Assembly: GCA_001595945.1 (NCBI GenBank)
Contig: LSSI01000040.1
Span: 1-44,829, forward strand
Direction of reading: 5' to 3'
Origin: Thermoplasmatales archaeon SM1-50
GTDB lineage: Archaea > Thermoplasmatota > E2 > DHVEG-1
Length of the DNA stretch: 44,829 nt
Each line of letters opens with the position of its first letter. Within the stretch, counting starts at the first letter, position 1. Below, in pieces: positions 24,080 to 27,982 of the stretch. Both the position numbers and the translations under genes were made by a program. A model generated the notes under the pieces. It searched no databases. It saw only the letters and a program-made list of their open reading frames with translations, and had not been told where the DNA came from.

Positions 24080-24170
24080 TATTAAATAAATAATAATATG
24101 AAGATTTAAATATTTGTTTTTTGTAAAACTTTTTTGTGCTAAGGGTTGTTCCCCTTGATCAATGCCCATT

Positions 24171-24328
24171 CGAATAGTAAAAAGTTGTTGTTGTATCTTA
24201 AATACACATGGGTATGTCTGGTGATGCTGCAGTGAATAGATCTGGTTCTCGAATAGTAAAAAGTTGTTGTTGTATCTTAAATACACATGGGTATGTCTGG
24301 TGATGCTGCAGTGAATAGATCTGGTTCT
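24171..24328. repeat. 79-bp perfect tandem duplication (two copies, 24171-24249 and 24250-24328)
   Basis: CGAATAGTAAAAAGTTGTTGTTGTATCTTAAATACACATGGGTATGTCTGGTGATGCTGCAGTGAATAGATCTGGTTCT occurs twice head-to-tail. Confidence 0.97.
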
Positions 24329-24426
24329 GCTACGCGTTGCTTTTAAGAGGATAGAAGCGATTTTTCTCCTGTTGATGATCTTTTTGTCTTTTCTTTCCAA
24401 TAGATGGTTTTCATTGAAATCGAAAC

Positions 24427-24523
24427 ATTTATATATAGTATTAACAATTGTTAACTCAGAGAGGTGCAATTGTTGATGAGCGAAACTTTTTTTCTTTCCT
24501 CCCAAATCCTCATCAACAATTAA
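24427..24523 (+). other. Short transcription-unit candidate A: TATA box, palindrome TTAACAATTGTTAA (24441-24454), 13-bp IR (24468-24480/24509-24521), 15-codon ORF (24476-24523)
   Basis: Direct reading; mini-ORF MSETFFLSSQILINN; loop contains TTTTTTTCTTTCCTCC. Confidence 0.55.
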
Positions 24524-24592
24524 CTTCCTATTAGTAACTTTATAAAAAAAATTATAATCCGAGAAAAACACACATGAATTTTTAGTGCAAAT

Positions 24593-24904
24593 TCAATCGT
24601 TATTTTTTTGTCGTGTAAAAAGTCCTTCAATCAAAAGATACATGTTGATACAAAGTAATGGAACGAAAATAAAAAACAGATATTCCTCAACAGGAAGTCC
24701 AAGAATGTTTCCCACAATCTGGTCCTGCGAAAAGCTCCACAATTCCATTCGAACAGAGAGTTGATCCCAAAGCACTGCAATGAGAAATAAGATAAACAGC
24801 GTGATACATAATGTCTTTAAATGTAGTTTTTTTCTATTCAGATACAGCAAAATGATATTAGGAATGATCACAAAAACACTAAGGAGCTGCAGATACAAAT
24901 ACAT
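24593..24904 (-). CDS. Lycopene cyclase-domain protein (single-domain, CarR/CrtY heterodimer-type)
   Basis: 103 aa, 3 TM; LWDQLSVRMELWSFSQDQIVGNILGLPVEEYLFFIFVPLL. Confidence 0.8.
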   Translation of the reverse strand: MYLYLQLLSVFVIIPNIILLYLNRKKLHLKTLCITLFILFLIAVLWDQLSVRMELWSFSQDQIVGNILGLPVEEYLFFIFVPLLCINMYLLIEGLFTRQKNND

Positions 24905-24995: not shown

Positions 24996-25433
24996 ATGGC
25001 TATGAATGCAGTAATAAAACAAATCAAAGGCTGTTCTTTTATCGGGAAGGCGGATAGCAATCACTGGGTGCCTATCGACAGTTCAAAAGAGCATGCAGGA
25101 TCTGATGCTGCGACACGTCCGATGGAGCTTGTGTTGCTTGCATTGGGGAGCTGTACTGGCTGTGATGTCGTATCGATTTTACAAAAGAAAAAGGTTCAAT
25201 TGGAGCATTTTGAGATTGTCATTACTGCGCAGCGATCTGAGACACATCCAAAGATGTTTATAAACATCCATCTTGAGTTTGTGTTCGTTGGTTCAGGACT
25301 AAATCCGACGCATCTTGAAAGGGCTATTGCATTGTCACAGCAGAAATACTGCCCGGTTTCCGCGATGCTTTCAGCAAAGGTCAAAATCACCACCTCCTAT
25401 CGAATTGTTGAAGAAATGAAAAACGATACTTGA
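24996..25433 (+). CDS. OsmC-family protein
   Basis: ATRPMELVLLALGSCTGCDVVSILQKKKV...YCPVSAML. Confidence 0.92.
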   Translation: MAMNAVIKQIKGCSFIGKADSNHWVPIDSSKEHAGSDAATRPMELVLLALGSCTGCDVVSILQKKKVQLEHFEIVITAQRSETHPKMFINIHLEFVFVGSGLNPTHLERAIALSQQKYCPVSAMLSAKVKITTSYRIVEEMKNDT

Positions 25434-25524: not shown

Positions 25525-25700
25525 CCATATAAATAAGAATTAACAATTGTTAATTAGGGGCGTAAAATATGAGGGAGCGTAGTTTTTTTCCATCTTTCCT
25601 CCTCTTCTCACCAGCAAAAACTTTCTCAATTTTACGTCCGCCTTTCCATACAACACAATATCTCTGTCTCTACAATTCTTTTAAAATCGGTCGTCCTTGA
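25525..25700 (+). other. Short transcription-unit candidate B: TATA box, palindrome AATTAACAATTGTTAATT (25538-25555), IR (25561-25568/25629-25636), 43-codon ORF (25569-25700)
   Basis: Direct reading; mini-ORF MRERSFFPSFLLFSPAKTFSILRPPFHTTQYLCLYNSFKIGRP; loop contains TTTTTTTCCATCTTTCCTCC. Confidence 0.55.
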
Positions 25701-27982
25701 CTCGAAAAACCATGCAATGGCTCATAGGGATTAAAGGCAGGATCACCATATAACACACGAACAAAGAATGTCGGTGGTTCTGCATCGATGCGTTTTTCTC
25801 CACGTAACGCCTCACCAATGCTCCAGTCATCAACAATCAAATGATTCTCTAAAACCGTAAGACCCGATTCCTGACCGGTTTCCCGTGTCGCCCCAACAAA
25901 AGCATTACAGCCCGCATGAAGCATGGCAAGCCCAATGTTCATTTGCGGTGGAAGACCATCGGTGCGTCCCACCAAACACGCGGAGGTCAAAAAAACACTT
26001 GGTTTATCATAGACCCAGTCCTTGGCATGAGCGACATCAACCGCCTTTGAATACATATCAAAACCGTAAAACGACGCGGGGAACCAAAACCAGTCACCAT
26101 GACCAAGGTATTCGATATAGTTCGCAGCAGTAAAAACATAGAACCGCTCTATAAACTGTCGACTGTTGCGGAAAATTCCATAGACTTTTGAGGAAAAATT
26201 ATAGTCCCTTATTTCCCTAGCATAGGGTATCTGATGGAACAATCCTCCTGTTTCACCAAATCCTTCTCCAAATATGAAACTGAACCGATGATGCCAATCA
26301 CTCGCATGTTCTGGGGTTCCACAGAGGGGTTCATAGAAGAACGTCCGCGCAATCAAGACAGAAACATCATAGACATCCCAGCTGATGAGGCGCCCCACGG
26401 AGAGATTCTGGCCAAGGGAATAGGGATTATCAGACGGCAATCCTCGTTCAGGGATACCTCCTTGAGACGGTCCGTAATAGTACATAGGAATCATAGTCGT
26501 GTCCGCTAGAATTGCAAGCCAGGCAGGTCCATTGAGATACCCATTGAGAAGGTCATACGCCTCAAGTGTATCTAATGTCATTTTTAGTTGTTGCACTGTT
26601 GTGTTGACTTTCTCATTGGTAAAGAGATGGAGGGGTTCAGTATACCATGGTCCGGCACCGAAGCCTTGGGCAGCTGCTACATAGGAAATATCCGTTAGCT
26701 CCCAAGAGGCATTTGCGATAAGCAGCCCACCATGAGCTGCAGTAAGGTACGGGGCAAGATTGGAGAGCTTTGGAATGACAGGGATATGTGGAGAACCAAG
26801 CGTTGAAATGGTTATGTTGATGGTGATATCCGCATCAACAAAAGATAACCCTCGCTGGATATAAAATCCACCTTTTATCCCATAATAGACCGTTATCTCA
26901 AGATTGTATGGTCCAGATGCGTTGCAGGTAAGTGTTTCAAGATATGTTTTTCCAACATCATAGCCCATGCTATTGGCGTATGCGATAATCTGCCCATGCG
27001 CATCGAAAAGTTTAATGAAAATAAGGGGGTCAATTGGAGATAGATGCCCAAATAACGACCCGTGTTTTTGCGAGATTTCCCCGGAGATTTGTATATGGTT
27101 AATGCCATCAGGGATTGATATTGAAGCGTAACAAGTATCATTGCCAACAATATCAAGTTTCTTACTTAGGATAATGATTTTTTTATTGGTGATATGCTCA
27201 TGCATCATTATCGTGGTTGTGTTGATGACCTCAGGTGGGATAACGTCTGAAGGATTCGTCATGGCTAGATAGTTGATAGAACCAAATTGTATAGTAATAG
27301 CAGATAAAACTGTCTCGGTAATCGCCTCTTCATTGGGAAGGGATGTGATGGTCACATTTGGCAGGGTAAGTAAGCTATCCCCGACAAGATATGCCTGGGT
27401 GGTATGAAGCTGCGTACAGGCGATTTCAAGCGCCTCCTCGTTATTATCATACAGGAGGATGGGGATGTTAAGGTAACTTGCAAGCGGTGATGCAAGCAGA
27501 CTTAGATGGTACAAATCCGTATTTATTCCATAAGGTAGGATAAGAACAGTTGGTGCTGTGAGAAATATCTCTGTCGCTAGTGCGATAGCAACTGAAGGAG
27601 CAGATCCTAATATCTCAATCGTATGGTGCGTTGTGTTGAGATGCTCACCAATCACTAGGACACTAGTATTACTAAAGGAGAGATACGATGCAAGAAACCG
27701 CGCCTGAGAAGCAGTAAGATTGCCAGCATGAGAGATTAACAAAGGCAGAAGACCGCTGGTGTTCGTTGCGCTATCATACCAACAGGCGACACTAGTACCG
27801 ATAAGACTGAAGAATGGATCGCTTTCTGCCGCAACCACAGCATTCGCGATAGGAGTTCTATACGATTGATGGACGATAAGTTGTGCTGATGGGACATGTA
27901 TCTGTTCTTGTCCGATGCCATGCACTTGCAGACTACAACATAGAAGGAATAAGCCAAGGATGATTGTCGCAGATGCTTTCAT
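25670..27982 (-). CDS. Large secreted protein, C25/gingipain-like (caspase-fold) peptidase candidate with N-terminal cell-wall-binding-repeat-like region
   Basis: Signal peptide; EYLGHGDWFW (His) and PSVFLTSACLVGR (Cys) dyad pattern; LGDPAFNPY-like C-terminus. Confidence 0.7.
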   Translation of the reverse strand: MKASATIILGLFLLCCSLQVHGIGQEQIHVPSAQLIVHQSYRTPIANAVVAAESDPFFSLIGTSVACWYDSATNTSGLLPLLISHAGNLTASQARFLASYLSFSNTSVLVIGEHLNTTHHTIEILGSAPSVAIALATEIFLTAPTVLILPYGINTDLYHLSLLASPLASYLNIPILLYDNNEEALEIACTQLHTTQAYLVGDSLLTLPNVTITSLPNEEAITETVLSAITIQFGSINYLAMTNPSDVIPPEVINTTTIMMHEHITNKKIIILSKKLDIVGNDTCYASISIPDGINHIQISGEISQKHGSLFGHLSPIDPLIFIKLFDAHGQIIAYANSMGYDVGKTYLETLTCNASGPYNLEITVYYGIKGGFYIQRGLSFVDADITINITISTLGSPHIPVIPKLSNLAPYLTAAHGGLLIANASWELTDISYVAAAQGFGAGPWYTEPLHLFTNEKVNTTVQQLKMTLDTLEAYDLLNGYLNGPAWLAILADTTMIPMYYYGPSQGGIPERGLPSDNPYSLGQNLSVGRLISWDVYDVSVLIARTFFYEPLCGTPEHASDWHHRFSFIFGEGFGETGGLFHQIPYAREIRDYNFSSKVYGIFRNSRQFIERFYVFTAANYIEYLGHGDWFWFPASFYGFDMYSKAVDVAHAKDWVYDKPSVFLTSACLVGRTDGLPPQMNIGLAMLHAGCNAFVGATRETGQESGLTVLENHLIVDDWSIGEALRGEKRIDAEPPTFFVRVLYGDPAFNPYEPLHGFSSQGRPILKEL

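Follow-up and report, generated by a model that had tools for sequence, protein, structure and literature searches.

Evidence for a family of operator-associated hairpin RNAs, possibly linked to redox stress, in Thermoplasmatales archaeon SM1-50 and its relatives

To our knowledge, a regulator, a regulon or a mechanism has been established for only a few archaeal sRNAs. In Methanosarcina mazei, the intergenic sRNA154 is expressed upon nitrogen starvation, and an anti-ribosome-binding-site sequence in its loop 2 masks the ribosome binding site (RBS) of the glnA2 mRNA (PMC5867862). The trans-acting sRNA162 and sRNA41 of the same organism also mask ribosome binding sites (PMC3510493, PMC5867862). 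sRNA162 pairs by means of a single-stranded linker between stem-loops, and its homologs have been reported only in Methanosarcina (PMC3510493).

Our analysis concerns a stretch of 44,829 nucleotides from Thermoplasmatales archaeon SM1-50, termed the window, which contains two similar short units, A and B. Unit B (~25525-25650, forward strand) is a candidate structured-RNA gene. A TATA box read from the sequence (TATAAATA, 25528..25535) lies 4 bp upstream of the core of a palindrome. The full 18-bp palindrome, AATTAACAATTGTTAATT (25538-25555, unstranded), was identified from the sequence and from genome-wide operator searches, and its 14-bp core, TTAACAATTGTTAA (25540-25553), sits between the TATA box and the predicted start. 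A transcript-like stretch, GGGGCGUAAAAUAUGAGGGAG...CUUUCUCAAUUUUACGUCC, runs from about 25557, and the hairpin RNA itself (25558..25639, forward strand) is indicated by folding, covariation and homologs. Archaeal start sites can be predicted from the usual distance between TATA box and start, and by this measure the hairpin begins at the expected site.

The initial annotation of unit B had proposed a TATA box, palindrome, start region, loop and return arm, and every one of these elements is present in the sequence. The hairpin is longer than was proposed: instead of 11 bp with one G.U pair, the stem comprises 19 bp with one bulge, in which 25558-25577 pairs with 25621-25639. The pyrimidine-rich loop of 43 nt (25578..25620, forward strand) contains UUUUUUUCCAUCUUUCCUCCUCUUCUCACCAGC, with a conserved core, CTTTCCTCCTCTTCTCACC, within 25593-25612. 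The predicted minimum free energy (MFE) is -20.7 kcal/mol, and 0 of 200 dinucleotide shuffles are as stable. Directly 3' of the hairpin, B-type homologs carry ACCTTTCC or ACTTTT, and the pyrimidine-rich tail of unit B (25640..25650, forward strand) is, judging from its sequence and the homolog tails, a probable T-rich archaeal terminator; a scan for bacterial-type terminators found none. We consider it very probable that unit B is a genuine gene encoding a small hairpin RNA.

Unit A has the same layout, with a TATA box read from the sequence (TTTATATA, 24428..24435, forward strand), an operator whose core is identical to that of unit B (TTAACAATTGTTAA, 24441..24454, unstranded) and a hairpin RNA (24458..24529, forward strand) with arms AATTGTTGATGAG and CTCATCAACAATT that is indicated by folding, alignment and homologs. 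Its loop (~24484-24506) includes CTTTCCTCCC, and its MFE of -21.6 kcal/mol is equaled by 0 of 200 dinucleotide shuffles. Homologs of unit A in related genomes adjoin the same genes. Upstream of unit A, between it and an MFS gene, we also observed a tandem duplication of ~80 bp (CGAATAGTAAAAAGTTGTTGTTG...GATCTGGTTCT twice, 24170-24330).

Convergent with unit A is a gene for a 103-aa lycopene-cyclase-like membrane protein (24593..24904, reverse strand; a weak match, below the cut-off). An OsmC-family gene (24996..25433, forward strand; PF02566, E=9e-19) lies between units A and B, and a peptidase C25-like gene (25670..27982, reverse strand; PF01364, E=5e-11) is convergent with unit B. All three genes are syntenic: the order MFS, A, lycopene-cyclase-like, OsmC, B, C25 is kept across the genus, and a further seven genomes of the genus have the C25 gene adjoining unit B. 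Downstream of both units there are convergent genes only and no gene on the same strand. Unit B had been thought to run antisense into the 3' end of the C25-like gene, which would hold only upon read-through; otherwise the hairpin and tail stop at ~25650, ahead of the C25 stop codon at 25670. For this reason, and because the position of the C25 gene is a synteny of a single genus, an antisense role is not supported.

The palindrome is strongly overrepresented. The window has two sites for TTAACNNNNGTTAA versus 0.10 expected, and 0 of 100 shuffles reach two. Searching the whole 2.09-Mb genome for the pattern TTAAC-N4-GTTAA gave 16 sites, versus 2 for a reversed control, so the shared operator suggested in the initial annotation extends well beyond the two copies from which it was recognized. 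For the exact palindrome, there are 10 sites in this genome versus 1 for the reversed pattern, and the summed table for 46 genomes of the family gives 189 versus 15. Sites with a single mismatch number only 5, compared with the 10 exact sites, as expected for a selected site. At 32 of 36 operator sites of hairpin RNAs, a distance of 4-11 bp separates the palindrome from the end of the best TATA-like box upstream of it. Archaeal repressor sites usually lie between the TATA box and the start.

The center of the operator is AATT, AATC or GATT in 13 of the 16 sites of this genome. Seven of these 13 are followed by a hairpin with a CU-rich loop, namely units A and B and the hairpins at C39:1740, C20:5899 (-), C70:3365 (-), C15:30266 (-) and C57:22033 (+), where the prefixes are contig labels. 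The other six precede protein genes, some of them with redox or stress functions. Operators lie upstream of genes for an MsrP-like molybdopterin lipoprotein (C21), an HtrA-type protease (on the contig labeled C25), a secreted protein (C52), an HdrC-like Fe-S protein (C68) and, probably, a 168-aa-type protein (C84), and upstream of a regulator paralog (C82), where a gene that reads in translation as dihydroorotate-dehydrogenase-like lies on the other side. A separate observation is a Cys-containing protein of 50-55 aa (MKVILCGGGTC...NTCTLT...) encoded directly downstream of the operator, in its exact form or with one mismatch, both in this genome (C88) and in a genome of a sister family, G015 (L023, L024, L037); it has no match in Pfam or NCBIfam.

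Three subtypes of the hairpin were aligned: the B type (A1), the A type (A3) and the C20 type (A4), the last of which neighbors the regulator. R3, a covariance model built on the C20 type, was trained with no B-type sequence and did not include the operator, and it recovers unit B of the window at E=1.2e-5. R3 has matches in 34 of 46 genomes and 17 of 23 genera of the family and none in 35 other genomes of the class, counts that should be taken on the basis that the MAG assemblies are incomplete. Upstream of most R3 homologs fetched from other genera lies the operator or its one-mismatch form, and a few homologs are without it. No Rfam (release 15) family was found at the gathering threshold in the window and ten other loci, apart from two tRNAs.

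In the B type, 11 of 19 pairs are altered on both sides and 94% of cells are paired, and in the C20 type 7 of 8 pairs are altered on both sides; 0 of 500 shuffles match either result, although pairing is overestimated to some degree because the models themselves guided the alignments. For both types, the signal is abolished when the pairing partners are slid. Duplexes between the two arms of individual sequences, which are independent of model fit, outperform almost all of 300 shuffles for most sequences; the few failures arise partly because arm cutting missed the loop. The hairpins are thus siblings with a common promoter element and compensatory stem changes, as in an operator-controlled family of sibling sRNAs. 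That at least seven sibling units in this genome share the operator and form one sRNA family is well supported by these sequence comparisons.

While the stems differ, the loop core of the regulator-linked type, AUCCCAUCCUUUCCUCCUCUCCUCA, is nearly constant across genera, with ~25 nt almost invariant. A 22-nt piece of it was found in 13 stretches in the GTDB collection of ~85,000 species, and every one of these belongs to a MAG with the title Thermoplasmata, Thermoplasmatales, Euryarchaeota or uncultured archaeon. Within the SM1-50 genome, a 20-nt loop core with up to three mismatches occurs only at three hairpin loci, unit B included. A conserved purine tract in three further genomes (L181, at ~1450-1560, L182 and L183; G005, G007 and G004) corresponds on the opposite strand to a CU-loop-like hairpin (CCTTTCCTCC...TCTCCTCACC), which apparently lies toward the 3' end of a gene and is possibly a sibling RNA derived from a 3' UTR.

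Encoded divergently from the C20-type sRNA is a predicted XRE-type HTH protein of ~110 aa (L001:1646-1987), MKRTPCEYVMWNGLPVIRKEIAE...QYLSHKRG...ETCRICK...CxxC. Thirty of its strongest homologs, picked by protein score alone, were examined. An operator variant occurs within 400 bp upstream in 25 of the 30, in many cases at a distance of exactly 30 bp from the ATG; a divergent sRNA loop occurs in 19. Because 25 of these top homologs carry the operator upstream of their own gene, the HTH protein is likely an autoregulated repressor that binds it. Cys6 and the Cys pair of the CRxC motif (CRIC, CRVC or CRLC) are invariant in 17 of 17 aligned regulators, and most have a second CxxC. The HTH_3 match (E=0.002) is below the cut-off. 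An AlphaFold model (mean pLDDT 78) has a helical core with HTH-like helices, and its Foldseek matches to XRE, HigA and C proteins are weak, as is a separate match of the protein to the 434 repressor.

We take this regulator to be akin to the COG2522-like archaeal XRE-family regulators, likewise small HTH proteins with an N-terminal Cys and a C-terminal Cys motif. For that group, we found no solved relative above weak similarity and no published function, and literature searches yielded no paper on the group or on anti-Shine-Dalgarno (anti-SD) sRNAs of Thermoplasmata. The regulator family occurs in 61 of 81 genomes of the class and is thus wider than the sRNA, so position and operator are all that link the two. 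Given the wider spread of the regulator, the sRNA may be a later addition to an older regulon. In the sister-family genome G015, no sRNA was detected, and the gene that follows the operator encodes a small Cys-rich protein. Another paralog of the regulator (MTIKI[ND]CEESVWY...) was observed at L031 and L059, with the operator TTAACAATCGTTAA 43 bp upstream; it is near a gene for a MacB-like permease that has its own exact operator.

The best explanation, which we regard as probable though far from assured, is a redox-linked family of sibling sRNAs under a transcription factor, with loops that mask SD regions. A dimer bound to the operator between the TATA box and the start would block the archaeal basal machinery. 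Oxidative or metal/thiol stress might be sensed through the cysteines of the regulator, which would then leave the DNA. The sRNAs would switch on together with repair and redox genes, encoding an MsrP-like oxidoreductase, HtrA, HdrC, PNPOx and 8-oxoguanine glycosylase (Ogg). These regulated genes and the neighboring OsmC gene suggest oxidative or thiol stress, and the sRNA family apparently belongs to an oxidative-stress program. The loops (UUUCCUCC, CUCACC) could pair with the SD regions of mRNAs (GGAGG, GGUGAG) and thereby restrain translation. We infer transcription, repression, signal and base-pairing targets from sequence.

Anti-SD action is plausible, because the loops hold complements of GGAGG and GGUGAG. 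Targets were sought in a sample of ~440 kb, about a fifth of the genome, in which translation starts were compared with gene interiors. The loops pair better with starts than with interiors, but dinucleotide-shuffled pyrimidine-rich loops nearly match them. When starts were chosen blind to the SD, loop complementarity was slightly, and not consistently, above that of dinucleotide-shuffled loops. By duplex energy against mononucleotide shuffles, the R1 and B loops are favored and the A loop is not, at starts that were chosen partly by their SD. No near-perfect conserved target was found, and sequences complementary to the loop are located mostly at the sRNA loci themselves. The additional conserved matches that we inspected were a coding stretch that appears in translation to be glutamate-dehydrogenase-like (L184, L185) and the CU-loop-like hairpin of L181-L183. 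The top predicted targets were simply genes with strong SDs in the sampled fifth of the genome, and we attach no function to them. The sole match to the 16S 3' end, GGATCACCTCC, in the assembly is outside any detectable rRNA gene.

What keeps ~25 unpaired bases fixed across genera as the stem drifts is a question posed by the near-invariant loop. This length exceeds the need of short SD pairing. The loops might instead be decoys that bind proteins or the ribosome, or titrate another RNA, with the invariant core serving as a protein site. The narrow margin over dinucleotide-shuffled loops at starts and the lack of a long matching target also favor such a function. However, UUUCCUCC and CUCACC complement the archaeal SD motifs, and the shorter siblings A, C15 and C57 retain only the UUUCCUCCC part, as a pairing seed would. 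We consider decoys unlikely, though worth weighing.

It is less likely still that the hairpins serve as 5' leaders or attenuators for genes downstream of them instead of acting as free sRNAs. Several genera have a same-strand gene for 8-oxoguanine glycosylase (PF22175, E=3e-52; NCBIfam equivalog above the cut-off) within ~90-150 nt downstream of the C20-type hairpin (L005, L081, L038, L113, L149), and in others this place is taken by a gene for a Cu/Zn-efflux-like permease or by a Fur/PerR-like gene. At these loci, the C20-type hairpin may additionally serve as a leader. By contrast, the convergent surroundings of units A and B offer no gene to lead, none lies on the same strand in the stretches inspected at C15, C57 and C70, and T-rich tails follow the hairpins.

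The initial annotation had proposed a small regulon, under one operator, of sRNAs or microproteins. The sRNAs are strongly supported by the seven units, the homologs in 17 genera, the covarying stems, the near-invariant loop core and the operator upstream of most homologs fetched. In this genome, the 5' arms of units A and B do contain an ATG, from which the mini-peptides MSE-TFFLSS and MRERSFFPSF were read. However, neither the peptides nor a start codon and frame are conserved among B-type relatives: the ATG is lost in L030, L035, L061 and L008, and the frame is disrupted by indels in the loop. Together with the compensatory stem changes, this makes microprotein genes very improbable. A chance pair of AT-rich palindromes near unrelated inverted repeats has nothing left in its favor given the genome-wide operator excess, the R3 matches and the covariation, and is scarcely credible.

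The preferred reading, an sRNA family with SD-masking loops, can be carried further. More tentatively, we propose a family-wide redox circuit in which a thiol- or metal-sensing XRE repressor runs both repair enzymes and a lineage-specific set of sibling sRNAs, whose near-invariant 25-nt pyrimidine loop would be an anti-SD brake on many targets. For an uncultured lineage, one comparative data set provides an RNA family absent from Rfam, an operator, a probable transcription factor and co-regulated genes, which makes the mechanism directly testable.

Like sRNA154, the predicted RNAs described here are archaeal and intergenic, and their hairpin loop holds a candidate anti-ribosome-binding-site sequence. 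The likeness is one of proposed mechanism, and we claim no homology. sRNA154 differs in lineage, signal and architecture (two stem-loops). It has been described as a single conserved Methanosarcina sRNA, in contrast to multiple siblings under one operator, and sRNA162 and sRNA41 likewise lack a shared operator family. In bacteria, the LhrC siblings of Listeria, RsaE/RoxS and FsrA are C-rich-loop sRNAs under redox, iron or envelope-stress regulators that occur as sibling copies, carry C-rich single-stranded motifs aimed at SD regions, or both. They are without a TATA/operator architecture and are analogous to the unit B family, with no homology claimed. If the proposed redox circuit is correct, it would be an independently arisen archaeal counterpart of this bacterial redox and iron-sparing sRNA strategy.
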